Of a stretch of DNA of 64,000 nt, positions 1,352 to 64,000 are shown piece after piece. The notes beneath the pieces are model-generated. The model made no database searches and was not told where the DNA came from. It saw nothing but the letters and a program-made list of their open reading frames with translations. The number at the start of each line of letters is the position of its first letter. The stretch's first letter is position 1. Source of the DNA: Hypoxylon rubiginosum (taxonomy: Eukaryota > Ascomycota > Sordariomycetes > Xylariales > Hypoxylaceae); NCBI GenBank assembly GCA_902806565.1, contig CADCXA010000032.1:62001-126000 (forward strand), written 5' to 3'. The position numbers were made by a program, and so were the translations under genes.

Positions 1352-2441
1352 TTAATCTTTGAGGTACCTGAACACAGCTCCAGCAGGAACAAGGCTCCCA
1401 CCCGGGAGAATAATGCCGCCTTGGAGCCGCAGCTCCCCACAAAGGGTTGTGCCTCCTAGAAGAGCGGAGCCGCTGGGGATGGTCATGCTTCCGGACAGGA
1501 TCGTTCCAATCGGGAGCTGAGTCCCGGGCCTGAGTAAGGTCCCGCCAACAAGGAGGACACAGGCTTGCTGCGCGAACTGGGAATCTGAATCTGTTTGTGT
1601 ATAGATGGTGGCGGTGTCGGGGATAAGAAGTTCTCTCCTGAGGCATAGGACGCCTCCGAGGCTGGTGCGACTTCCCACCACCAGGTCTTGCGTCAGCCAC
1701 ATGGGACGCGAGCCCAGTACCAACTCGGCATCGGTGGGGATGACAAGCTCGGCTTTGGCAGGTATCTCCCAGTCCCAGTATAGGAGTTCGGGGTTGGGTA
1801 GGGCGCGGTCGGTTCTCGACAGAAGGTCAGGATAATACTGGCCCACCCGGATGTCGGCGCCGGCTGGGAGGCCCAAGGAGGGTGACTCTAATTCCCAGTC
1901 ATCCCAGCTATCGCCTCCCGAACCTACTAAATGCATCACCAGGTTCACTCCAGGAGGACCATTTATTTTACACTCAGGCACTAGAACAACGTGAGTTAGT
2001 GGTCCACTCTTTGGATAGCAGAATAAAGAAACCATGGTGTGACATACCGGACAGCTCCACGCCGTTGCCAGGGACCGTAGATCCGCCACTGGGGATTCCG
2101 ACCCGCCCAAAACCAGACACAAAGTAGTAAGGGAGATCGAGGCTAATACTGCTACCGCGAGGCAGCGGGATGGGGGGGGCCAGTTCTGATGTGATTGCCG
2201 CTCCCCCGTCGGGGAGCTTGAGTATCGCCGGCTAAGTAAAGAGAGCTGTTAATGCGCCATGTACATCGCATATACCAACAGTATACAAAACCTACCTCCT
2301 CACCCTCACCCCTGCCACCATCTCCTCGTCGTCCTCCTTCTTGTCGTCCTCCTTCTCGTCGTCCTCGCCCTCGTCGTCCTCCTCTTTGTCTAGCTCGACC
2401 TCTGCCACTGCCACTGCCGCCACGCCCAGCACGACCACCAT
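1352..2441 (-). CDS. hypothetical protein with LP/PG-rich repeats, 3 exons, probably secreted
   Basis: Three exons on the minus strand: 2441-2310, 2231-2048 and 1980-1352, with introns 2309-2232 (GTGAGG...TTAG) and 2047-1981 (GTATGT...CTAAC...CTAG). They join in one frame of 314 residues. The first exon starts with a short hydrophobic stretch (MVVVLGVAAVAVA) followed by a strongly acidic D/E/K low-complexity run. The rest has recurring short hydrophobic-Pro-Gly motifs such as LPAGADI, IPSGSALLGG and ILPGGSLVPAG, suggesting a regular beta-solenoid-like fold. An alternative first exon in another frame (ATG at 2457, Arg/Gly-rich, GTAGGT donor) also joins in phase, so the N-terminus is uncertain. 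I do not recognise the family and assign no function. Confidence 0.6.
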
Positions 2442-3805
2442 CGTTTGCGTTGTTCATCTACCAATATCATTAGTACCTATCCATTTACCTAAATCAAGAA
2501 GGTTTCAGGGATTACTTACGGTGAAAAGAATTCAGGTGGAAATGGTTGGCTGGGGGAAGTGGTTGAAAGACCGTTGTGATATTTGACGGAAAAGAAGAAA
2601 AGAAGAGAAGAATGTGGGGGAAGGGACAGAGGTATTGATGTCTGCAGATTGGCCTGGCCCTACACTAGAAGTTATTGGAAAGCGCGTCCGTCTATATTTA
2701 TTACTTGGTAGGAACGAAGATATGTGGGTAGGTAATCGCAGAAGTACCTAGGGCAGGCACTACCTTATGTACCTACCTAGGTAGGTATGTATTTATTTAT
2801 CTTCTGTTATTTACGTGTAGCTACCTTAGCCTTTTCGCTATGCTTTCCAACGATATAGCACGCATCAACTATATCCACTACCTAGAGGTACCGAGCAACG
2901 AGTATGACTTCACACCATGATCATACCCACATGTACCTAACACGCAGTTATGCACTATTAGGCTTTGGCTTTCTTTCCTTTATGACATAGGACTATCGGT
3001 CTGTATCAATGAAAGGCACAGCGAGATGGCAACCACACAGGAGAATAGAGAAGTTTTAGAAGTGAATATCAGGTACCTAGGTAGGTCATAGAGCGAAACT
3101 ACCGTGACTTTAACGTCTCTATTCTGTTCTTGCTCCCCATCTCCTCGTACTCGACAGCATCCGTGATCCATTCGCAACTGATTCGAAGAAAAATGTCCTA
3201 GTATAATTACACCATCTCCACCGGAGTTGCAATCTACCTCCATGGCCATACTCTTTTCTCATTTTCTATTACGTTTTAGAGCATATATGGGATTGTATCG
3301 AATCCAGTCAAACACGAACTGTCAAAATGGCACCCCGCACGTCTTCGTATATCCCTAAACCCACAGCAAGGGTTCTGGAGTCGGATACGATTGCAGACGA
3401 CTCTAAGCACAGCACTATCGAGTAATCGTCTACCAAAAGGATGTCCTATCAGTCGGCTATCCCTAATAAGCGAGTACTAACCAACAATGTGGGACTTACC
3501 AAGATGAAGGAGCCCAAGATGGGTCCCATATTACCAACTCTACCAGAATCGTGTGCCAACATCGAACAAAGCCACTTGAGTAGAACCACAGCCCTGTTCG
3601 TCGAGGGGAGAGGAGATAGGTTGATAGCTTTTCACGCAACATACTTGTTCACTCCATGATTTCCAATTGGCGCACATGCAGGTCGCCAAATCCCCTTTTC
3701 GGATATAAAATGCATCACCTCCTGCTTCGTAATAGAGGATCTGTTGTGTAAAAACCTTTACCCTCTACATTCTTAGTGTATCTAGAGTGAAAGGAACCTT
3801 CGGCT
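2442..3805. other. intergenic; two unsupported short ORFs
   Basis: Promoter region of the minus-strand gene and of the plus-strand peptide gene. It contains TACCTACCTAGGTAGGTA-type palindromic runs near 2765-2790 and 3073-3088. Two short plus-strand ORFs (3327-3425, 32 aa, with a good AAAATGGC start context; 3441-3659, 72 aa) have no recognisable motif and I do not call them genes. Confidence 0.4.
3703..3712 (+). promoter_or_regulatory. TATA-like box upstream of the small peptide gene
   Basis: A GGATATAAAA stretch lies about 95 bases upstream of the ATG at 3806, followed by a pyrimidine-containing leader. Its position fits a core promoter for the 48-residue peptide gene. It is inferred from sequence only. 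Confidence 0.35.
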
Positions 3806-6549: not shown

Positions 6550-9500
6550 CTAGTCATAGTTTCTGTAAGGAACCAGCTGAACTGTCTCCAAGGGCTCATC
6601 TTGCCCCTCAAAATCCATACTAACAGAGCAATGTGATGGAGAGGATGGCGCACACGAGGTTTTATCACGTTTCGATTTGAGCAATGCCATTTCCTCCTTG
6701 ATTGCATGCGACAGGATTTCGAAGCTTATGTCAACTGGGCGTAGGCCAAGAAGTGCTCTGAACGCAGTCCGAGTGTCGAGTTTCGAGTTCGCTTGCGACC
6801 TAGAAAGATAGTTGACGTATTCATGGTAGCGATGAGCTTTGCCATAGTCGCAAGAAGACATATAAACTCTTGCTAGCTTAATGTATACAGTTGGGTCCAT
6901 AAGCGGAAGTGGCACGCTCTTGGATAGGACTGCTATAAAGTATCTCGAGTGCCTCGGGGAATGCGCCAGGGTATGGAGGACTCGATCATATGCCGCATTC
7001 GAATTCGGACATAACCGGAGAAGTGCCCTTAATAACAGGTCGTTTGATGCGTAATCTGTCGGATCGAAGGCTCCGAGAAATCCCACAAAGACATCCGGGT
7101 CAATGAGAGGCGTGCGATAGTTGTGTTGCAACATATCAGCAAGCTTTTTCTTGCAGGCTTCCAAGTGTGCCGGACTTTGAAGCAGCAAGTTCAGAAGTCC
7201 ATTGTAAGACTCATCCGTCATGTCGTCGACCAACGATAGCAGATTTGCGAGAGGGCTGACATCTTCAGGGAAAGCTTGAAGAAGCCGGCCGCACAGGCTG
7301 TAGACGTCAACACCTGTGCTAGGTATATATCTTCGGCCATCTTCGTCTTTGATTTGAGCGATCAAGGCGACGTAATCGCGGAGCATAAACACGTTTCCGC
7401 TTGCTTTTTCCAAAATGGGATTACAATCCACCCAGGTTTTCGGATGCATTTGAATGAAGTCGGCGAATGCAGCCTTCTCGGTATCTTCGCCGCGGTATAC
7501 TTGGGCAAGGATCCCAAGAAGATCGTACCACAGAGTCTCGTCGAGCAGTTTGTGCGGCCTTATTTTCCCAGCGGCCCTGACGCAGCAGTTCAAATCTTGA
7601 ACTCTACGGATGTTATTGCCGGTGATTGCGAGGAGTAGGGCTGAGTGAGACTCATATATAGCCCATATGACCTTACTCTTTATATCGGCGGAATAACCAT
7701 CATCCCCTATACTCCCTTCTACAAGATTTGGCCTGTGAACGAGTTTCAAGAACAGCGATAGGAATATTCCCGGTGACTCGTGTACTCTACTGGTGTGGTG
7801 AAGCCAATATTTCTTTGCGTATGCAAGGAAGTGAAATTGGCTGATGGATGTGCCTCCGAACCGCTCGATTTCCGCTGAAAGAACTTTGCCGATGTTGACG
7901 CTGTGTTTAAAGTGTTGACTTTTTAAAAGTCCTATTGCCATAGATCGCACTTTGCTCGAATCATTCAACGATAAGTTAATGATCTTTTGGGGGATACCGT
8001 CCGCTGGAAGAGTCGACACGGTCTTGGTTGAGAGCTGGGCATCGAACCCTTCCCAATTAAGGTAGGTGACTATTCGATGCCCAAGTTCTTGTTCCGCATC
8101 CTCGATACTGAAAGGTACTCTATTCTGGCCTTCGAATCCGCCGAGGAGAAACTGCCTGACGCTCGGATGAATCAGATGTAACGTGAAAAGTTCCTCGTCA
8201 AGGACGACTAGACTTCCACAACAGCGCAAGATATTCCGAGTATCGTTGACGACCTTTACAGGAGACAAATCCGTGTCACCGGGAGTGAGGCTTATCACCT
8301 CTCCAAATTCGTCCAGAGAAAGAGGACGCCTAGCAGCAGCGAGAATTTTCAGAATAGGCGATTGATAAGTTGGCGCCTCATTGCGGCATTGGTCAAGGAT
8401 ACGTCGGAATATATCTGGAAGATTCCTAGGAAGATGCTGCAACGCCTTCCGAATATCTTGGTCGGTTTTCTCGAAGCAAAGGGATTCGATCTGTAGTCGA
8501 GCCCAGAGGAACCTAGATCACTACTTAGCTAAGTCCAAAACAAGATTTCAAAGCAACTTACATTCCTTGGGCGCCTGCCTGGATGGCATCCCGGATCTCT
8601 AGAATGATACGGGGATCACCAACCACAAGCGATCCATCCTGCAACTTTGATATCAGCTGTGCTTCGATATAAGGCGAGAGCTCCGGTCGTTCGCGAGGTA
8701 GAGTGAGAGACATTCTAGAACATAGGACGTCCATGTCTTTTTCTACCTCATTGCTTGCTTCGAGGCTGAATGAAACGCAAATCTTCAATTGATGAGGTCT
8801 TTGAAGGGCCCCAAGTGTACCAAGTAGTAGGACACGCTCATTTCTGGTACAGGCTTCTACGCCATCGATGATAAAGACTGTTTGACCCGCATGATCCAGA
8901 GCTGACGACAATATTAGTTGTATCTCGCTTTCGTCAAGTCCCCCGCGAAAGTCGCTGGAAAGCTCAGCCGACAGATCAAGTGGAAGCTGTTCCAGCAATT
9001 GACGTGCAAGACATCCTAGTATAGTCCTGCTCTCTAGTGACTTCGAGTCATCTTGACAGCAGAAGAAATATGCTGTCCTGTTTTTTGGATGGTGCAAGTT
9101 CAAATCGTCCACCATGTTAGCAAGTTGAACAGATTTGCCGGACCCTAACTTTCCTCGGAACAGTAGTGATGAAGATATATCCTGATCTAGCCACGTCTTG
9201 TATGTAGCCTGTTCGTAGGCCCATGTCGCATTCCCTTGCTTCCTAATTCGCTTCCAAGCTGTCCGATAATAGGGGTAAGTTGAGCATTGGTCCAAAAGTT
9301 GCAGGTAGCTTTGCAGGGCTCTGCGACGCGTCCCAGATACTGTAAGAGACTGGATCATACTATATACAGCAGACGAATGCTTCATCTTCTCAAGCTGTAA
9401 TTGCTCTCTGATAGCGTTGGTATTGTCGCTGATCTGGGACTCGTACTCTGCAACATTACGATCTTGGATGAAAGCTTTGATTTGGCCTAGGAATGATTTC

Positions 9501-10087
9501 TGACAGAGACGAACAGTGTCGTGGCAGATCCGAACGATCGTTGTGAAGTATTGTGCCATAAGTCCTTGCAGCGACTTCGATTGAGGGAACAGGGATGCCA
9601 TTTCGTGATATCGAGGTGCTGATAAGCCAACTCTCATAAAAAGAAGCGAGATTCGATCTAGATATGTGGAAAACCTCACCGCTGTCTAATTCATATGAGT
9701 CTCATATTCGTGACAAGATAGAAATTCAATACATACCAGGAGAGTCGTCCGTACTATCGCCCATGCACCACAGGCAATTAGATTCTGAGAGCCACCCGCA
9801 ATGATATCCCCTAAGGATACGTATTGCTGGACAGATTCCAGGATCATCGTGAAGCGGGGACCGAAACATCTGTGGTGTCCGCCTTTCTGTTGCCGTGCTT
9901 TCTCGTCGATCTCAGCCGTCAAGTTCATGACATCGCGAACGTTAGGTGGTGAAGCAATCGCGGTTGCCCTGATCATCTGAAACCCTGCCTTTTGTTCCGG
10001 GCTCAAGATGCCTTCAAAATCCGAGACGGCTTCCCCCAGCTCAATCTCCGACCTCGAGCGGCTAACCTTCCTTACAACGAGTGCCAT
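6550..10087 (-). CDS. NACHT-domain NLR-type protein with DUF7708-like N-terminus
   Basis: Three exons: 10087-9737, 9685-8562 and 8512-6550, with introns 9736-9686 (GTATGT...ATTAG) and 8561-8513 (GTAAGT...CTAG). The product is 1145 residues. Residues about 20-220 resemble the helical N-terminal region (DUF7708) of fungal NACHT proteins (VSLGDIIAGGSQNLIACGAW, then RISLLFMRVGLSAPRYHEMASLFP). The P-loop GKLGSGKS lies at 295-302 and the Walker B VFIIDGVEA at about 387-395. The splice at intron 2 restores AQGMFLWARLQIESL, a conserved motif at the end of NACHT modules. The C-terminal 600 residues are helical and lack recognisable ankyrin or WD40 repeats. Such STAND proteins mediate non-self recognition and programmed cell death in fungi. 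The ligand is unknown. Confidence 0.88.
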
Positions 10088-14971: not shown

Positions 14972-15978
14972 TCAGGGAGTTGTGCTAGCAAGGAATGAGC
15001 CCAAGATCTGCCCAAAACGCTCGCGCTCTTCGAAATGTCCCATGTGGCTAGAGTTCTCGAGTGTTACCCACTTAACCTTGGGAATTGTCTTGAACCAGGG
15101 CTCAACGCAGAGGTCGTGTGCTTCATCATATCTCCCGTTCAGCAGCAACGTCTCTGCCTCGATGTTGTGGGCATCATGGTAGCCTTCCCAATCCTTGAAG
15201 GAGCCGATGATAATGAACTCGGACGGGCCTTGCCTGTTATTTGTCGTCAGTTTGAGACCTGCGTGCACTGGCCGTGCGTCTTGAGAGAGGCAGAGAGAAC
15301 TTACAGCGTGAGGTAGGCTGTCGGGTCGTCCTTCAGGTTCTTGAATGCACATTGCACTTCTTCGGGATGCGGGTCTAACCGACAGACGTGACGGCTGTAA
15401 AATACAGAAGCAGCCTTCTCGAACTCTTCGCTCTCGTAATCACCGCGCTTGTTGCACTCCTCAAGCGTGCTGCGCACATCTGGCGGCAGCGCCGCGATCA
15501 GACCCTCGTAGCCCTTGACAAGGAGCGGGATGCTGGCCGGTCCGCCGGCGATGACCAGCTTCTTGAGCCCGCGCGGCTTGCGCGAGGCGTAAGCGCCGCC
15601 GAGCATCCCGCCCCAGCTCTGGCCGAAAAGGTAGAAGCCCGGCCCGTCGCGCAGCTTCAGGTGGTGGATCAAGTTGTCGAGCTCGAGCATGAAGAGCTCA
15701 AAGGTCCAGAAGGAGGTGTCGCCCTTCTTCTCCCGCAGGTGGGTGGACCGGCCGCAGCCGATCTGGTCGTAGAAGACGATCGGGATGCCGTGCTGCTCGT
15801 AGACGTCGGTCAGCGGGGCCAGGTACTCGTGGCCGGCACCGGGCCCGCCGTGCAGCGCGACGAGGGGAGGCTTCCCGGAGTCGAGGCTGCCTACGATCTT
15901 GTACCAGGTCTTGCATGGCTTCCCGGCGTTGGGCGCATCGAAGTCTACTTCACCTTCCGAAACCAGGAGTGGTGCCAT
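14972..15978 (-). CDS. proline iminopeptidase-like alpha/beta hydrolase (peptidase S33)
   Basis: Two exons, 15978-15305 and 15233-14972, with intron 15304-15234 (GTAAGT...CTGAC...ACAG); 311 residues. The oxyanion-hole motif HGGPGAGHEY is at 43-52. The nucleophile elbow GQSWGGMLGG places Ser121 as nucleophile. Asp261 (LNGRYDEAHD) and His288 (SSHMGHFEE) complete the triad. The HGGPG + GQSWGG combination is diagnostic of the prolyl aminopeptidase / L-amino-acid amidase family (S33). No signal peptide, so cytosolic. It lies 0.85 kb from the UstYa gene and on the same strand. Because the neighbouring precursor repeats contain an invariant proline, a role in trimming a peptide is conceivable but inferred only. 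The first exon is unusually GC-rich at the third codon position. Confidence 0.88.
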
Positions 15979-16832: not shown

Positions 16833-17878
16833 TCATGAGCTTGGCCGCCGTGGCTGATACTTGTACTGCCCGGGACGGAGAGCCCTCTGGCGTGCCCAGT
16901 CATTCAAGCTGTCCCATCTCACACAGGTTGTCACCGAGTTTGACTTCAGGTTCCTGCTCGGCAACTTAGTTTCCTCGTCCCATTCCGAGGTATAGAGCCC
17001 CGTGTTGGCATGGCACATTAGCGCTTGGCGAATCGTGTCGATGCAGTGGTCTTATGAAACGAGGTGCAGTTAGCTCGCACGTTCTTCCTTTTTCTGGAGG
17101 CGCAACAGTAAGTAGGGGGTAAAATACCACTATGCTCGCGTGAAAATCCTTCCAGATGCTTTTCACCGGCTAGCTTGGGGCCGTAATAGTCCCAGCTTAG
17201 TAAACGGCGGATATTATTCTAAAATGTTAGCGATGAAGCGTTAGACGAAGTCTGCGCTACTCATACCAGACAATGTAGGTGATGGTATGCACCTAGAACC
17301 CCGACATAGTCGTTGCCCTTGCCCCCTGTAATCTGAACGCGGTTTGTCTTGTTCTCGTTCAGGAGGCTTAACTCATCGTCTCCGATTCTGATGTTGAGAG
17401 CTGGATGGATGAGAGCTTAGCTTCTGCTTTCGTCAAGATCATACTATACAGGTAGATAGCTTACAGTAGAGCGCGTCGTCCCATATGTCATCCAATGCGT
17501 CAGATGGCTCCTGTTTCCACGGTAGCTGAGGCGGGTACCATTCTGGCCGTTCCTCGTATTTCAGAGCATCTTTGGGTAGGGCTAATTATGGTAAGCGAGC
17601 GTCTCCAGCCACTGTCATGTAGAAGACTTACTGAAATGACCATCGTCAATTTCACTATGATGTGTGGCAGCACATTTCGATGACTTGTTGGAAAGTTGAA
17701 TTGTTTGGAGTATTGCGATGTATAATAGGAGAAAGACTATCGGTAACGAAAGAGCATTGGTACGCAACCAAGAACGGGCAGGTCGCCGTTGTATGTCTCG
17801 GGATTCCTCGAGCCCATCGTCGCTATACACGCCGCGTCCAAGTAGACGATCCCCGCTGTCTTCGGAGTGCTTTTCCAT
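16833..17878 (-). CDS. UstYa-family (DUF3328) oxidative cyclisation protein
   Basis: Five exons: 17878-17632, 17581-17465, 17400-17267, 17218-17128 and 17050-16833, all with GT...AG introns of 48-77 bp; 268 residues. A cytoplasmic basic N-terminus is followed by one transmembrane helix (about residues 43-62, LSLPIVFLLLYIAILQTI). The lumenal part carries both signature motifs, HHLHC at 161-165 and HSDHC at 195-199, the latter extended as HCIDTIRQALMC. In this family, known from ustiloxin, phomopsin, asperipin and cyclochlorotine biosynthesis, the HxxHC motifs bind metal and the protein oxidatively cyclises peptide cores in the secretory pathway. It is transcribed away from a Kex2-repeat precursor 1.3 kb distant. 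An in-frame upstream ATG at 17989 is possible, but the chosen start gives the normal topology. Confidence 0.9.
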
Positions 17879-19206: not shown

Positions 19207-19618
19207 ATGATCTCTAAGCTTTTCCTCATCACGCTGCTAGGATCGGCCGCTCTGGCCTCCCCGATCAACTTAGGTAACTATTCTTCATGCTACCGTACAG
19301 CTAGCATCCGAACACTCCTAACAACTCGCAGCAAACCGCGACTCGAACACCATCGTGCTTCAAGACGTTCCCGTAGCGGACAAGCGAGACTCCAGCATCG
19401 TCTTCCTAGACGTTCCAGTCGATGAGAAACGGGACACCGCAATTGTGTTCCAAGATGTTCCTGTGGCAGAGAAACGGGATAATTCGATCGTGTACCTAGA
19501 TGCTCCCGTAGCGGACAAACGGGGCACTGCAATTGTGTACCAGGATGTTCCCGTGGCGGAGAGGCGAGATTCGAACACTATTGTCATGGGAGACGTTCCG
19601 ATAGTAGATGAATCTTAG
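19207..19618 (+). CDS. Kex2-processed repeat precursor (candidate UstYa-dependent RiPP / KEP)
   Basis: Two exons, 19207-19273 and 19332-19618, with a 58 bp intron (GTAACT...CTAAC...GCAG); 117 residues. Residues 1-17 are a clear signal peptide (MISKLFLITLLGSAALA). After a short spacer ending ANR come six repeats at 26-41, 42-56, 57-71, 72-86, 87-101 and 102-117. The first five end in KR, KR, KR, KR and RR at 40-41, 55-56, 70-71, 85-86 and 100-101, ideal kexin sites; the last ends at the stop. Repeat consensus: D-[ST]-x-I-V-[FYLM]-[LQG]-D-[VA]-P-[VI]-x-[DE]-[KR]-R. The position after IV is Phe or Tyr in four copies. This is the architecture of fungal dikaritin-type precursors (UstA, PhomA and GigA class), and a UstYa gene is divergent to it. 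Less likely alternatives are a pheromone-like precursor or a repellent/structural secreted repeat protein. Confidence 0.88.
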
Positions 19619-19994: not shown

Positions 19995-21347
19995 TCACCA
20001 ATCCTTCATATACCCTTCACTTCCAAGGGCTTCCTCACGTCCCGATCCTTGACCTTGATTTTGACCTCTTGTGCTCGTTATCACCGTATTGTCGGTGGTA
20101 ATCTTGATATAATTACTTCGATCTCTGTTCTTCGAGGAGTCGCCCGAGACTAGTTCCCCACTCGTGTCATTGCGAGCGGACCCCCGCAGCTTAGACAGCG
20201 CGTATTGGGATGTGAAGGCCCTGTTGTCGGCCGATATGAGACCGCTTCGCAGAGAGCGCAGGAACGGCCAGAAGTATGCCGCGCATGCTGCTGATATGCT
20301 CGCGAATTGGGCGAACTGCATGCTAAGATAATATGGGAACCCTCGAAGCGTGAAGTCGGTTTCGAAGACGCGGGGGAGGTAGACGAGCTGGCAGATTGTC
20401 GCTGCGATGGCCCTACAACAAGTTAGGACTGTCTGAATCGTATAAAGGGGAACGTCGGTGAGAACGAACAATATCCTGACCGAGAAGAAGCTTAGGACGG
20501 TGATTCGCGTCCGAAGGGCCATCTTCAATGGGTATACCACCACTACCGGAAGTGCTATTAAAGCAGCATCCGTAATAATATTCGTGACATCCACAAATGC
20601 CAAATATGCGCGCTATCGAGTTGGTCAGTAGTAGCTCCTAAACGAAACCCGTTTTCTTGTTGCGGTCGCTTTCTCACCCTATCAATACATTTGACATCAT
20701 CACCAGTCTCCCACGGCCCGTGGCTGCCACATTGGAAAGCCGTCCCGATGAAAGCTGCCAGTGCCCATAGTATGACGACCGTTACGAACATGGAAGTCAT
20801 ACGACGATGTCCACTGTCCGGCGACAAGGCCGTTAAGCCTGCGCAGACGGACAGTTTTGCGAGCGCCAGAGCAAGGATATAAAGCAGACCACCCGCAAAT
20901 TGGACCTAAGTGGACGAAATCAGTCCAGGCACGTACAAGCCAATTTCCAATGAAAGATGCGCACCTTAAGCCCCGTCGCCAGTTCTTCGTCGGATATATC
21001 GCTTCGCGCCTTTCCCCATATTTCACCTCCTGGGACAAGAATCGTCACGGATTCACCCAGGCCGGCGAGCTAATGATTCACAAGTTAACTCAGCCGAAAG
21101 TTCATCTAGCTGCGGTTACACGTACGAATGCCGAAGTGATGAGCACCTCCTCCCATCCAAATCGCTGGTTCGTCTTCAGGAAGAACTTAGTGAGGAAGCG
21201 AAAGCAGAGCATAAGCGCTGTTATGGCCAGGAGGAGCCAAGTGACCATCTGCAGTATCGGGTTCAAATTCGAGTCCGTAATGACGATTCCCTGCGGCGGC
21301 GTTGGCGGCGCGACCTCGTCGGAGGCGCGGCGAAAAGCCGACGGCAT
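19995..21347 (-). CDS. SAT4/fungal rhodopsin-domain integral membrane protein
   Basis: Five exons: 21347-21126, 21069-20965, 20905-20678, 20612-20470 and 20412-19995; 371 residues. The introns (donors GTACGT, GTGCGC, GTGAGA and GTTCGT) keep frame and family pattern. Seven hydrophobic helices are expected: MVTWLLLAITALMLCFRF, then GLLYILALALAKLSV, then TVVILWALAAFIGTAFQC, then DVTNIITDAALIALPVVVVYPL, then SFFSVRILAIAATICQLVYL, then SISAACAAYFWPFL. The ITDAALIALPVVVV...SFFS-R order is that of the fungal SAT4/rhodopsin-like family (PF20684). Members are often found beside secondary-metabolite genes, and PTH11-type relatives act as receptors, but no ligand is known here. The hydrophilic C-terminal tail is charged. 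Convergent with the RiPP precursor, 376 bp away. Confidence 0.85.
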
Positions 21348-23809: not shown

Positions 23810-25552
23810 ATGCCGCCCTCGCAAACCGTCATGTCCGTCAAGAGCGATATCGAGCTGCGCGTCACGACGCCAACCCACGGCGACCACACCGAGCGCACGT
23901 TCCGCACCATCGGCGGCTCTACCAAGGATGACGAGCAGCTACAGCGCCTGGGCAAGCGCCCGCTGCTCAACCGCGGGTTCGGCTTCATGTCCATCCTCGG
24001 CTTCTCCTGCTCGGCGCTGCTCTCCTGGGAAGGCATCTTGGTCACTTCCATCTCCGGGCTTCTGAACGGAGGCCCGGCCGGCGTGATATGGGGGTTTCTA
24101 ATCAACTGGGCCGGCACCATATCGGTCTACACAGCGTTGGGGGAGCTGGCTTCCATGGCGCCGACGGCCGGTGGGCAATGTAAGAACGTCGATTGCCCCC
24201 TCTTCCAGCCTACCTGCTAACATTGCGACTCAGATCATTGGGTTGCCCTGATGGCTCCGCGGTCGTGCAGTTCGTTCCTGGCTTACATGACAGCCTGGAT
24301 GACGACTCTGGCCTGGCAAGCTCTTGCGGTCTCCGTCGGTTATATCATTGCGACCATGCTTCAAGGCATCATCGTGCTGACGAACCCCACCTACGTACCG
24401 GAGAACTGGCACACCGTGCTTATCATCTGGTTGGCCGGGCTATTCGCCGTGCTGGTGAACTCGACGACGAGCCGCGCCATCGCCAAATTCGAGGGTTTTA
24501 TCCTAATCCTCCACTTAGCAGGGTTCTTTGGCGTGCTGGTTCCAATGGTGTATTTTGCCCCTCATAACGATCCGGCGGAAGTGTTCACCACGTTTCTCAA
24601 CACGGGCGGCTGGTCGACGCAGGGGCTGTCGTTCTTCGTAGGCTTCCCTGCGATTGCTGGAAGTCTATTGGGCGCCGACTGCGCCGTGCATATGTCCGAA
24701 GAGATCCAGCACGCTGCGGTTGTGGTGCCGCGGGCCTTACTATTCACTATCATTATTAACGGGACACTTGCGTTCGCTATGGCCATCGCGTTGATGTTCT
24801 GTCTGGTCGACTTGGAGGGGGCACTAGGAGCTGCCGAGACTATGTACTACCCGTTTCTTCAAATCTTCTACGCCTCCGTCAAGTCGATAACCGGTGCCTG
24901 CGTCATGGCGTGCATCGTCTTCGTCATGGCTGTCTTTAGTAGTGTAGGCGTGTATGCCTCTGCTTCTCGTATGCTGTGGTCGTTCTCTCGCGATAGGGGC
25001 TTACCGTTTGACGGTTATTTGGTAAAGGTAAGCTACTATTCCTCATACCTCATTCCCGTTATGCTTTGATACTGAACAGTCGGCCAGTTAACCAGGAGGG
25101 CCCTACCTGTCAATGCGATTGTCACTACGTTAGCTATCACCGTGCTATTATCGCTTATAGTGCTTGGCTCTGCCATCGCGCTGAACGCTCTTCTCTCCCT
25201 AGCTATCGCCGCTCTATTCTCGTCGTATCTCCTGGTGTGCGGGCTTTTACTGTGGCGGCGCACCACGGGTGCTTTCCAACCGCATTACAATGCATCCGAG
25301 GTCATCTCCCCCGGCAACCTAGCGTGGGGCCCCTGGAAGCTGCCTGAGCCGCTAGGCGTATTCAACAATGTTATCGCTTGCCTGTACAGCATCCTCCTTC
25401 TGTTCTGGTCGTTTTGGCCACAGACGACCCCCACAACCCCCGAGAACGCAAATTGGAGTGTCCTCGTATGGGGAGCGGTCGTGATTTTCAGCATTGTGTG
25501 GTATGTCGTACGGGCCAAGAAGTATTTCAAGGGCCCTATCAAGGAGGTTTAG
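23810..25552 (+). CDS. APC-family amino acid/choline/GABA permease
   Basis: Three exons, 23810-24179, 24234-25027 and 25088-25552, with introns 24180-24233 (GTAAGA...GCTAAC...TCAG) and 25028-25087 (GTAAGC...CTGAAC...CCAG); 542 residues. After a 60-residue cytosolic N-terminus the first helix region has GFGFMSILGFSCSALLSWEG. ELASMAPTAGGQYHWVA spans the first splice and is the conserved helix 3 entry of fungal GABA/choline permeases (UGA4/HNM1 type). Further hallmarks are VYASASRMLWSFSRDRGLP and the NSTTSR loop. Twelve helices are expected. It probably imports amines or amino acids at the plasma membrane or vacuole. A longer in-frame start exists at 23639, but the chosen ATG gives a normal N-terminus. 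A role in exporting or salvaging the RiPP is speculative. Confidence 0.88.
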
Positions 25553-33897: not shown

Positions 33898-34498
33898 AGT
33901 CGGCATGCTAACCACGCTGACTGCTTCGTGAGAGGCTACTAGTAGCATTTCCACAATCGGATTAATCCTACATGCTTCAGGTATCGATTATATGGTAGCG
34001 GTGGTTGTCAAAACTGAGCTCGTGGTGTTGATACCCCTATTTGACGCCACAATTCCAATACCTAGTAGTAATGGACAGGGTCATAACATACCTAGGTGAT
34101 CTAGGTACACAGACATGGAGGAGCTATTGGTGTATATAACATTTTAATTTATATTTTCGAATTATTGTGTGCGTATGGGATGATATTGCGGAGTTTGCCC
34201 CTGAAATCTGTGAATTTAATGTCTTAATAAAACGCGGCCTCGGGCCTGGATCGCGTATTATTCTTGCCGTTTCTCTATAATTAAAGGCCAGGAGATTCAC
34301 TCCCCAAAACCCTTGAGAAGCGTTATGATAAAACAGGCGTGGTCGAGCTTTGGAAGAAGTTCTCTAGGCTCATTGGCCACGTCCCGCGTAATATGCCCCT
34401 GTCCTTCATCTTGCAGTTACCAATCGGATATTTCCATCTGCTAACCCCTCCTCTCCCGGTCATCTCAACATTCTTCATATAAACTCTGCGGCATATTA
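33898..34498. other. intergenic with TATA-like element before the HET gene
   Basis: About 600 bp without coding signal. CATATAAACT at about 34477-34486 lies only 20 bp before the first in-frame ATG of the HET gene, which argues that translation starts at the next ATG (34538). ACCTAGGTGATCTAGGTAC at 34091-34109 is another CCTAGG-type motif. Confidence 0.4.
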
Positions 34499-36827
34499 AT
34501 GCCTGTCTCTAAAGATACAAGGTATCATATAAGTATCATGGAAAATAAAAGATTATGCAAGTTCTGTGGCGAAATCAACTTCGAAGCTTTGAGAAATCCC
34601 TTAATCTCGGACTTGCCTGCTCTTCAAGAAGGCCGTGCAGATTCCACTCGACATCCTTTCAAAGACAAACGGGACGATGCTCATAAACTAGCCCGACTTG
34701 GTACATTTGGTGATATTCTTCGGAGAGGCAAGACGTGTCGTCTATGTCAACTTATTGGGGATGTTTTAACTCGGCACACGCCTGGCCAACTACTCGAAAC
34801 AGACATATGTGACGCGGAAACGTCTTTCTTCGGCGTGTACCGCGACCCGAAAGGAAAGAACTATTGGATCCGTCGACTGTCCATCATGGTCGAGATCGGA
34901 ACCGATGCATACAACATCGGTGGCCCGAAGAAAAGCCTATTCAACGCTTTTCAGGCATGCAGCACTGGTGCGACATCTGTTCAGGCGGAAGAAAAGTTCT
35001 TAGACCCCCAGCCTGGTCCTAATACGATGATATTCGGAGGCCGTCGACGCCCACTTCAACTTGACCTCCAGTGGGTTCGCCGATGGATCGACATCTGTGG
35101 GACGGATCACGGCGACGCTTGCGAGCGAGCTGACGTGGGCTTAGGAAACGCGATCGAGAGAATCCGATTCATTGATGTCAAGAATAGGTGCATAGTAACC
35201 TTGAGAGGCGTTCAGCTTTCCGCTTATCAATATATCGCTCTCAGCTACGTATGGGGAGGGCCGCAGAAGCTGAGACTTACCAGCTCCAACAAGAATAAGA
35301 TGGCACAACCGGGGTCCTTAGCCGAGAATCTACCACAAACGATAGAAGACTCGATATTGGTAACAGAATCTCTAGACATTCAGTATATCTGGGTGGACTC
35401 TTTATGCATCATTCAAGATGACGACGAGGACAAGGCAATCCAGATAGGGGCAATGAGCCAGATATACGGTTTTGCTTACCTCACAATTATAGCTGCATCG
35501 TCGCCTAACGTTCATGGGGGTCTACCTGGTCTCCGTCCCGGAAGTCGTTCTCTAGAACAGCGAGAGCTAATTGTTCTCCCTGAGAGCAAGAATGGTGCTA
35601 CTGGCGAACTGCTACCTGGCCTGTCCCTCATGACAACATTGGACCCTCTCGCAAACCCCAATGAACACTTCTTGGAACGCACGCCATGGAATAGCCGCGG
35701 TTGGACCATGCAAGAGCGTGTGTTGTCTCGCCGTGTACTTGTCTTTATGCCGGAGCAAGTATACTGGATCTGCCGTGAGGCTATGTTCTGTGAAGAATCC
35801 TACTTCGAGAATGATCTCGTCCGCTTTCACAGATTCCACGCCGGCGCTTCCGAGCCGACTCTTGCGAACTCTTTTAGAAACTTCTATGAGCCCGAGGATA
35901 GCGAAGTGCGCTTCTGGAAGACGTACCAGGGTCTCGTGGCTAGCTATACTCGTCGGGCTTTCACTTGTGAGGGCGATGTCTTTGATGGATACCTTGCCAT
36001 CCTTCAGGGGATGTCGGCTCTTTCGGGCGAAGAGTTTACTTGGGGCCTACCTCGATCCCATTTTGAGCAGGGCCTGCTCTGGAACTCGTTCACTTTCCTA
36101 CAGCGCAGAGAAGAGTATTCAACTCTTCCAATGACATCATTGCATATCAAGGTTCCTTTTCCTAGTTGGTCATGGATGGGCTGGATAGGAGAGGCGTTTG
36201 TCTGTATCGGGAACGACCACTATGATGAAGACCTAGGGTAAGCTTAACCACTTGAAAAGTCGCAGCGACATCTATCAGCTCACATCACCAATCAGGGAAA
36301 CCCCCGAGTTACTCTGTTTCGAGCATTACCACTCCCCCTTACGCCTCGAGCGCGTGAGAAAGGCTACCGCAAGGTATGACTTGATATCATCGCAGAATCG
36401 TGCGAACTGGAAGGCTCATCACGGTCAACCTGTCACATTATCCGATATTGCTGCGCAGAATCCTCAACTTTTCTCTGCAGAGCTCAGTAAGATTCCCGAG
36501 ACACAGATAATCTTCTTCTGGACGAGCTCTGCTTTCTTTACTGTGGCCCTGCCGCATGACGACGCAAACCGGTCCTTTACAATCATGGACTCGCTTGGAA
36601 ACATAGTGGGCTCTACAGGAACTCTAGAACCTAAGCTGAACGGAGGTCAAGGCCGACATGAATTCATCGTTATAGGTAGCCGGCGGAACCAGTTCTCGGA
36701 GCCAATGCTATTGCTGCTCCAGATAGAGTGGCGGGGAAATGTTGCCTACCGCGTCAACAGCGGAGAGATTAATGAAGACGTGTGGGAGACAGAAGATCAT
36801 ACATGGAAACTTATTGCACTTAGGTAA
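34499..36827 (+). CDS. HET-domain (heterokaryon incompatibility) protein
   Basis: Two exons, 34499-36237 and 36296-36827, with a 58 bp intron (GTAAGC...AATCAG); 756 residues. The HET block is complete: YIALSYVWGG at 245-254, IWVDSLCIIQDDDEDK at 297-312, the YGFAYLTIIAASS strand, and TPWNSRGWTMQERVLSRRVL at 395-414. The N-terminal CKFCGEINFEALRNP is the usual Cys-containing prefix of this class. HET proteins trigger cell death on non-self recognition or in defence; the partner is unknown. A second ATG (34538, MENKRLCKFCG) may be the real start because a TATA-like element lies only 20 bp before the first one. An acceptor at 36265 would leave a 28 bp intron and is rejected. Exon 2 encodes a C-terminal extension without known domains. 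Confidence 0.9.
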
Positions 36828-41744: not shown

Positions 41745-43686
41745 AACCAAAACCCACCTATTTTACTTACACATATTTTAACCAACTCTACTTTATATAA
41801 CATAAAATTAAAAATTCAGAATAAATATTAATTAATTTACTTAGATACAAAATTTAAGATTAATTAATTATATAATTATTAAGAATTAAGGTATAATTTT
41901 TAATATAAAATACTAATTTTTAACTTTTTATAAAAACATTATTTTTTAAATATAAACTTAAATAACTCCATTAAAATTCAATATAACACCTTATAATAAA
42001 AAGATAATAATTAAAGTTATTTTAAATATTACTTAAAATAATATTTTTATTTATATAATATTTTTTAAATATATAATTTTTTAATTTATTATATATTATT
42101 AATTTTATAAATAACTATTTATAAAAGCTTTTTAAAGTATTTAAATATTAATTTATAAATAAAAAAAAAAACTTATTAAATAAATTATTTATTAGGATTT
42201 AATAAAACACGCTTCTAGTTATAATATTATATATTTAATTATAAAAAACTTAATAAACTTAAAAAAACTTTTAAATAAAAACTAATTTAAGGTTTTTATT
42301 CGTTAAAATTTATTTATATATATAAAGATAAGTTATAAAATTAAAGTTATTAAATTTAATAATTTTAATTTTAAAACTATAAAATAATATTTTAACATTA
42401 AATAAAATAAATATAAATAAATAAAGTTTAAATTAATTTTTAACGTAAATAAAAAAGATATTATAACTAGGTATAATAAAAAAGTTATATTTTTTTTATA
42501 TATTTAACTTAATTAATTAATTATAATATTAAAAATCAATAAATTAATTTTAAAAAACTTAGTATCTAAGAAATTTTTTATAAAAAACCTGTAAAACTAT
42601 TCCTAGATATTTTTTATTAAATATATAAATATTATAGGCTAGTTTTTTAAACTAGGTATAATTTTTAAAGAAAAAAACATATAAATAAACTAATTTGAAA
42701 AACAATTTAAAACTATAATTAATTAATATTATATAACGTTTAAAAACGGTTAAATAAACAATAAAATCACTATTAAATAATTAAAAAACATATTTATTAT
42801 TAAAATTAAGTTCTTATTAAAATTCTTTTATAAAACATACTTATTAATATTTAATAACTATAAAAATTATATATTAATTAATATATTAATTTTTTTAATT
42901 TTAAATATTATTTTTTTAATTTTTTTATTTTTTTTTTATTTTTTATATACTAATAAAAGTGGGTTTTAGGATAAATTTATATTTATTTATTTCTTTAATA
43001 ATATTTACTTATATTTTTTATTAATATATATTTTTTATAAGTTTTAATTATTAAATAATAATTTTTATAACGTTTTAAAATTTATTTATTATTAAATTTT
43101 AAATAAATTATTTATAATAATTAATTTTAATTTTATAAACAAGTTTAATTTTCTATATTATTATTTAAAAGCTAAAGTAATTATTTTAATTGTAAAAAAT
43201 AATAAATCTAGTTTTAAAATAATAAAAAATTAGTTAATTAATTATTTTAAAATATTATAATATCTTAAAATTTAATTAAATAAAGAAAATATTAAAAAAT
43301 TAATTTAATAAAACTTAAATATTTATAATCTTATAATATTAACTTTAATGTTATATATAAAACGTTATATTTAAAATTTATTTAAAATATTAAACTTAAA
43401 TATTTATAAAACACTTAAAAATATAATAAAATTATTTAATTATTAAATAACCAAGTTAACTTTTAAAAATTAAAAGGTATTTACACTTAAAACTTAAATT
43501 AAATATAACTAAATTAAAAAGTATAAAAAAATCTTTAACTTTAATAAAAAATTTATTACTATTATTAAAATATTTATAATTAATAGTAATATTAATAAAT
43601 AAATTAAAACAATTTAATTATTTATTATTATTAAAAATAAAAATAAAAAGTAAGATTTTAAGGATATAAATAAGGAGGATTATATT

Positions 43687-63990: not shown

Positions 63991-64000
63991 GTTTAATTTA

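Follow-up and report, generated by a model that had tools for sequence, protein, structure and literature searches.

A short gene of Hypoxylon rubiginosum and the UstYa (DUF3328) oxidase gene beside it probably belong to a Tyr-poor family of UstYa-type RiPP loci, in which a precursor would be secreted, cut by kexin and oxidised at its cores by UstYa. The pair lies in a 64,000-nucleotide stretch of one contig (C32), hereafter the window. DUF3328 is regarded as the class-defining enzyme of UstYa-type RiPPs (as cited in PMC12048977), and under that definition the gene content makes this a UstYa-type RiPP locus. Only tentatively do we go further and propose a UstYa subfamily that dispenses with Tyr and tyrosinase and would introduce a phenol-free cross-link (C-C or other), or another oxidation, into Ile-Val-Phe/Leu/Met-x-Asp cores, within a module of UstYa, S33 hydrolase and permease that occurs twice in the genome.

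The precursor family offers a natural test of how UstYa enzymes choose and join residues and of what they need. Residues at the third core position vary both inside single precursors and across nine proteins, where aromatic Phe and Tyr as well as Leu, Met, Val and Ile occupy this one site of otherwise near-constant cores.

The precursor gene and its repeats

The precursor gene has the following features, the coordinates of the cores and Kex2 sites having been converted from residue positions.

19207-19618 (+): precursor open reading frame, ATG at 19207, stop codon ending at 19618, 117 aa
19207..19273 (+): exon 1, predicted signal peptide (MISKLFLITLLGSAALA, next residue S) and start of the pro-region, from the translation, its hydrophobic run and the similar N-termini of P0001-P0004
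19274..19331 (+): intron of 58 bp, donor GTAACT at 19274, CTAAC branch-like site, acceptor CAG at 19331
19332..19618 (+): exon 2, six repeats and stop codon, from the translation
19352..19375 (+): core 1, IVLQDVPV, edge repeat, non-aromatic
19397..19420 (+): core 2, IVFLDVPV
19442..19465 (+): core 3, IVFQDVPV
19487..19510 (+): core 4, IVYLDAPV
19532..19555 (+): core 5, IVYQDVPV
19580..19603 (+): core 6, IVMGDVPI, edge repeat, non-aromatic
19382..19387, 19427-19432, 19472-19477 and 19517-19522 (+): predicted Kex2 sites KR, at residues 40, 55, 70 and 85
19562-19567 (+): predicted Kex2 site RR, at residue 100

Translation and coordinates confirm the 117-aa gene with a 58-bp intron, six cores and five KR/RR sites claimed in an earlier note on this DNA, which had also given the residues at position 3 (L, F, F, Y, Y, M) and position 4 (Q, L, Q, L, Q, G) exactly. 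The open frame is preserved by 12 donor/acceptor pairs; the pair 19274/19331 is the one that leaves repeat 1 intact and also produces a junction resembling those of annotated homologues (PINLAIRDS in P0002, PINLADRDS in P0003, and similar in P0001 and P0004). On inspection of the translation, the N-terminus shows a hydrophobic run and a possible cleavage site between ALA and S, and it is similar in the homologues. The pro region is short and ends in a single Arg before repeat 1 (ANR), where four of the eight homologues have KR. Successive cores start 15, 15, 15, 15 and 16 residues apart, and the repeats contain neither Cys nor Trp. Repeats of 13 residues, considered unusually short in the earlier note, are in fact of ordinary length, 13, 14 and 8 residues being typical for ustiloxin, phomopsin and asperipin-2a, respectively (PMC7329392).

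Kex2-processed repeat proteins (KEPs) have been defined by at least three tandem repeats, each of at least eight residues, between KR, KK, RK or RR (PMC7329392); the precursor contains four full inter-dibasic repeats plus the two edge repeats. A scan of the window for open reading frames with at least three consecutive similar inter-dibasic segments picked out a single one; 30 dinucleotide-preserving shuffles of bases 1-41500 yielded no such frame, and the repeat array is not a product of chance. When repeats are compared with each other, the six conserved core codons give pS 0.65 and pN 0.06, and the two variable ones pS 0.54 and pN 0.52. Thus, silent changes dominate the former while the latter change freely, which indicates that the core motif is constrained and that positions 3 and 4 are not. 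In its own genome the precursor finds itself only (two exon matches), with no second copy at E <= 10.

A Tyr-poor precursor family

The homology search that the earlier note had suggested for the 117-aa protein returned four proteins, and a profile of the resulting five added four more, for a total of eight homologues with 3-5 cores each, as opposed to six in the window precursor. They come from Hypoxylon fuscum, H. texense, Hypoxylon FL1150, H. fragiforme, Hypoxylon NC1633, Hypomontagnella monticulosa, Hm. submonticulosa and Durotheca rogersii. Their N-termini are similar, apart from an extended annotated model for P0001 and a short one for P0082. The D-[VA]-P motif, which had been noted as unfamiliar, is therefore not unique to the precursor and marks a small Hypoxylon/Hypomontagnella/Durotheca family.

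All matches of one pattern in the nine proteins amount to 35 cores, in which Ile1 (34 cores), Val2 (33), Asp5 (33), Val6 and Pro7 (30) are nearly constant. Position 3 is most often Phe (18), followed by Leu (8), Met (4), Tyr (3), Val (1) and Ile (1), so that 14 of the 35 cores carry no aromatic residue there. This scarcity of Tyr is a new observation here; the oxidases of this kind that have been studied use Tyr. Aromatic cores are commoner among internal repeats (14/17) than among first and last ones (7/18; Fisher P 0.015, from hand counts and with species that are not independent). The rule that every core requires an aromatic residue was rejected on account of the 14 cores that lack one.

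Dibasic sites mark most, though not all, repeat boundaries of the nine proteins, FL1150 having HER once. A repetitive protein that is secreted or placed in the wall without being cleaved would equally show tandem repeats and a predicted signal peptide, but the dibasic site kept at most boundaries while repeat number varies, together with the co-location with UstYa described below, makes it very unlikely. Membership of a characterised non-RiPP family had been named in advance as an outcome that would speak against a RiPP precursor; none of the nine proteins gave a Pfam match above cut-off. The same result speaks against a mating pheromone precursor, although the predicted signal peptide and the KR-separated repeats are shared with alpha-type pheromones; with repeats that lack Cys and Trp, and since KEPs annotated as mating factors or pheromones are almost all described without DUF3328 genes, with three exceptions (PMC7329392), this origin is scarcely credible.

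A full-text search, supplementary tables aside, found no paper on the IV[LFYM]xD[VA]P[VI] precursor family. DVP does not occur in the main texts of PMC7329392 and PMC6339444, whose supplements may list the family unnamed. Hypoxylon is mentioned once across the two, among the genera that PMC7329392 gives for type G-6, which contains Tyr and has DUF3328 neighbours. A survey of Hypoxylaceae with PhomA, OphMA and GigA as RiPP templates described a cluster resembling that of ustiloxin in H. rubiginosum, in H. pulicicidum and in species of Hypomontagnella, and noted that no estimate of the true diversity was possible (PMC8403587); it may or may not include the present family.

The probable UstYa partner and the neighbouring genes

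Four genes near the precursor are considered here.

16833..17878 (-): UstYa (DUF3328) oxidase, 5 exons, 268 aa, from a PF11807 match of 143 bits and the gene model
14972..15978 (-): S33 proline-iminopeptidase-like hydrolase, 2 exons, 311 aa, from Pfam and PDB sequence matches
23810..25549 (+): amino-acid permease (AA_permease_2), approximate bounds, from Pfam
19995..21347 (-): fungal rhodopsin-domain membrane protein, approximate bounds, from a PF20684 match of 20.6 bits for one exon, below the curated cut-off of 27

The UstYa gene and the precursor gene are divergent and 1328 bp apart. With its two HxxHC motifs (HHLHC and HSDHC), the former is the class-defining gene expected beside a UstYa-type RiPP precursor. 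It is the one DUF3328 match of the window, the next on C32 being 480 kb away. Along its whole length the protein shares 84% identity with P0005, whose model has a helix at residues 30-67 and a mean pLDDT of 75.4; the window UstYa is likewise predicted to have one N-terminal hydrophobic helix. A fold search with the P0005 model against the PDB gave no match at E <= 0.001, so that no mechanism can be drawn from structure, and a sequence search of P0005 against the PDB gave none at E <= 1.

Among candidates sharing words with the query, 76 UstYa homologues were found, and a tree of 77 rows was built with the window protein. Co-location was taken as a precursor and a UstYa on contigs of equal size in the same species, the listings being compared by eye. 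Among the 76 homologues listed, a UstYa is found on the precursor-matched contig in five of the eight homologue genomes, namely FL1150 (contig of 227572 bp), H. texense (4018741), NC1633 (614853), Durotheca rogersii (700361) and Hm. monticulosa (898871). A shared contig gives no distance, one of them being 4 Mb long, and adjacency is seen only in the window and in H. texense, where the consecutive locus tags Hte_010557 and Hte_010558 place precursor and UstYa side by side. In the tree, the window protein, the five contig-matched UstYa and three others form a nine-row clade (98/88 support), and none of the 68 rows outside it matches a precursor contig. No contig-matched UstYa was found for H. 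fuscum, H. fragiforme and Hm. submonticulosa among the 76 listed, and no precursor was detected for clade rows P0006, P0010 and P0011. In Hm. monticulosa, P0024 scores above the contig-matched P0060 overall; the P0060 model is irregular, ending just past the would-be splice of intron 4 and missing the second motif, as is that of P0007, which misses the hydrophobic helix. Two HxxHC motifs are present in 72 of the 77 rows.

The earlier note had proposed a UstYa-dependent RiPP precursor from the layout of the gene only. That assignment gains support from the adjoining UstYa with both motifs, from the UstYa of one clade that accompany precursors in relatives, and from the presence of a kexin-type P-domain, encoded at one place in the genome. 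The same gene arrangement speaks against a precursor that Kex2 cuts into linear peptides for secretion (as signals, effectors or surface-active agents), never oxidised, with UstYa acting on another substrate. Consistent with the latter are the three homologues without a contig-matched UstYa among those listed, the non-aromatic cores, the mostly hydrophobic character of the cores and a DUF3328 gene near only 22% of surveyed KEPs (PMC7329392). All considered, we regard linear products as unlikely and retain oxidation by UstYa as the preferred reading.

The S33 gene lies downstream of UstYa on the same strand, and its product, with HGGPG and GQSWGG motifs, has proline iminopeptidases as its best PDB matches (E 2.9e-81). 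Its family has eight loci in the genome, one of which (C29) is a weak partial match, with weaker matches on C16 and C21 left out. Three of the eight (window, C67 and C27) are 580-1022 bp from a UstYa match, with P about 1e-6 under random placement, a value that weakens if the C67 and window loci derive from one duplication. Such recurrence of an S33 gene beside UstYa is also new. On C67 the S33-UstYa order on one strand is repeated with an amino-acid permease beside it. The C67 UstYa is the closest to that of the window (172 bits, among the loci compared, which cover about 30 of 43 matches), the closest S33 paralogue by summed bits is on C67, and so is the closest permease paralogue (278 bits versus 147 for the next, also on C67; 48% identity in the N-terminal exon). 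As C67 thus holds paralogues of all three genes, UstYa, S33 hydrolase and permease occur together twice in the genome. From these data the S33 gene is a probable, and the permease a possible, cluster member; the fungal-rhodopsin gene at 19995-21347 may or may not belong to the cluster.

The second group spans C67:208146-214499 (L052) and has two permease matches. An AT-rich block of 2-6% GC apparently truncates its UstYa gene on the 5' side, where the helix-coding exon was not found. At C27:340590-345410 (L053) a third UstYa gene lies by an S33 gene in divergent orientation, with a fungal-rhodopsin match 2 kb off. No precursor was recognised at the C67 and C27 loci in a list of open reading frames of at least 90 aa, or at least 45 aa with at least three dibasic sites, which short or split exons could escape. 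Fungal-rhodopsin matches were seen by eye less than 5 kb from one of 23 UstYa spans in at least five cases (C15, C31, C32:561 kb, C69 and C27), with an expectation of 0.8 for 150 matches; this proximity may reflect just common genomic neighbourhoods.

The locus is flanked by genes for a NACHT/NPHP3_N protein (8561-9685, -) and a HET-domain protein (34445-36238, +), which we take to be typical fungal incompatibility-type genes. At 41750 the GC content drops sharply, from about 0.47 to about 0.09, and remains at that level up to the window end at 64000; this AT-rich block is perhaps due to repeat-induced point mutation or part of a centromere.

Proposed chemistry and relation to known systems

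In ustiloxin, phomopsin and asperipin-2a the ring is closed via Tyr, a residue described as mandatory for their cyclisation, and a tyrosinase is needed for ustiloxin and phomopsin (PMC7329392). Tyr is present in 65.6% of repeats of KEPs beside DUF3328 genes, so that Tyr-less types exist in such surveys, the abundant ones having His-His or Trp (PMC7329392). In H. rubiginosum, 24 tyrosinase matches were found in the genome at E <= 0.001, none of them on C32. Single patterns detected no P450, methyltransferase or flavin site in the window, and the corresponding domains are absent from the Pfam matches of its 30 larger open reading frames, a scan that small exons would escape.

The predicted signal peptide would direct the precursor into the secretory pathway. 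Cleavage by kexin after KR/RR would yield as many as six peptides, each about 13-16 residues long and with one core. The adjoining single UstYa would then modify the core by oxidation. Most likely this would join side chains inside one core, among them that of Ile1 and, where present, that of the aromatic residue at position 3. With Phe as the usual aromatic residue and no tyrosinase match on the contig, a Tyr ether as in ustiloxin, phomopsin and asperipin appears unlikely; the three Tyr cores among 35 and the same lack of tyrosinase exclude a phenol ether as the product of the cores in general and, given the cores without an aromatic residue, an aromatic-based link cannot apply to all. By analogy with the Ile that precedes the aromatic residue in epichloecyclins and with the Phe-Leu bond of victorin, a link between Ile1 and position 3 is favoured for the aromatic cores, which would leave the others linear; the higher aromaticity of internal cores fits it weakly. 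A link between constant residues, e.g. Ile1-Asp5, independent of position 3, is equally open. If Ile1 is joined to position 3, the non-aromatic edge repeats might be released unmodified or act as spacers. The S33 enzyme probably trims or otherwise processes the peptide product, as its recurring adjacency to UstYa suggests, which makes it a candidate for the core-trimming protease, of a kind called unknown for ustiloxin in a 2019 review (PMC6514808).

A close parallel is the asperipin-2a locus (aprA, aprY, aprT and aprR; PMC6514808), with a Kex2 repeat precursor, a single UstYa homologue, a transporter and no tyrosinase among its four genes. However, asperipin-2a is closed via Tyr side chains, a residue rare in the present family, and no isoflavone reductase was recognised in 30 open reading frames of the window, where an S33 hydrolase and an amino-acid permease are nearby instead. 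The epichloecyclins (GigA; PMC9233826), likened here by description only, similarly derive several related peptides from imperfect repeats and have Ile upstream of the aromatic residue, as proposed here, but their linked aromatic residue is Tyr and their cores are nonapeptides. In victorin, a Phe side chain is bonded to an internal Leu that precedes it, which sets a precedent for such a link (PMC9233826); likened by description only, victorin differs in being a chlorinated, host-selective toxin from another fungal class. Ustiloxin and phomopsin have a signal peptide, which is predicted in the present system as well, and share with it KR-bounded repeats (of 13-14 residues in their case) and a DUF3328 partner (PMC7329392), whereas their cores are Tyr-x-Ile and need a tyrosinase, as opposed to Ile-Val-Phe/Tyr/Leu/Met and no tyrosinase match on the contig here. 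With tyrosinase and multiple DUF3328 genes missing, the locus falls outside the five-gene definition of dikaritins by Ding et al. (as cited in PMC12048977), of which the transporter or peptidase could be represented by the nearby permease and S33 hydrolase.

The repeat scan of 45 loci recovered the window gene again in two (L009 and L010), nothing in 42 and one other array in L027. The latter, at 2346-2654 (-) of that locus, C18 about 61.7-62.0 kb, encodes a second Kex2 repeat precursor with repeats [GH]DQPIEDYVISVDK[IT]-KR. With several UstYa matches nearby (C18:39.7-61.1 kb), as well as matches to tyrosinase (C18:74.8-77.2 kb), this locus looks like a classical Tyr-x-Ile dikaritin cluster.
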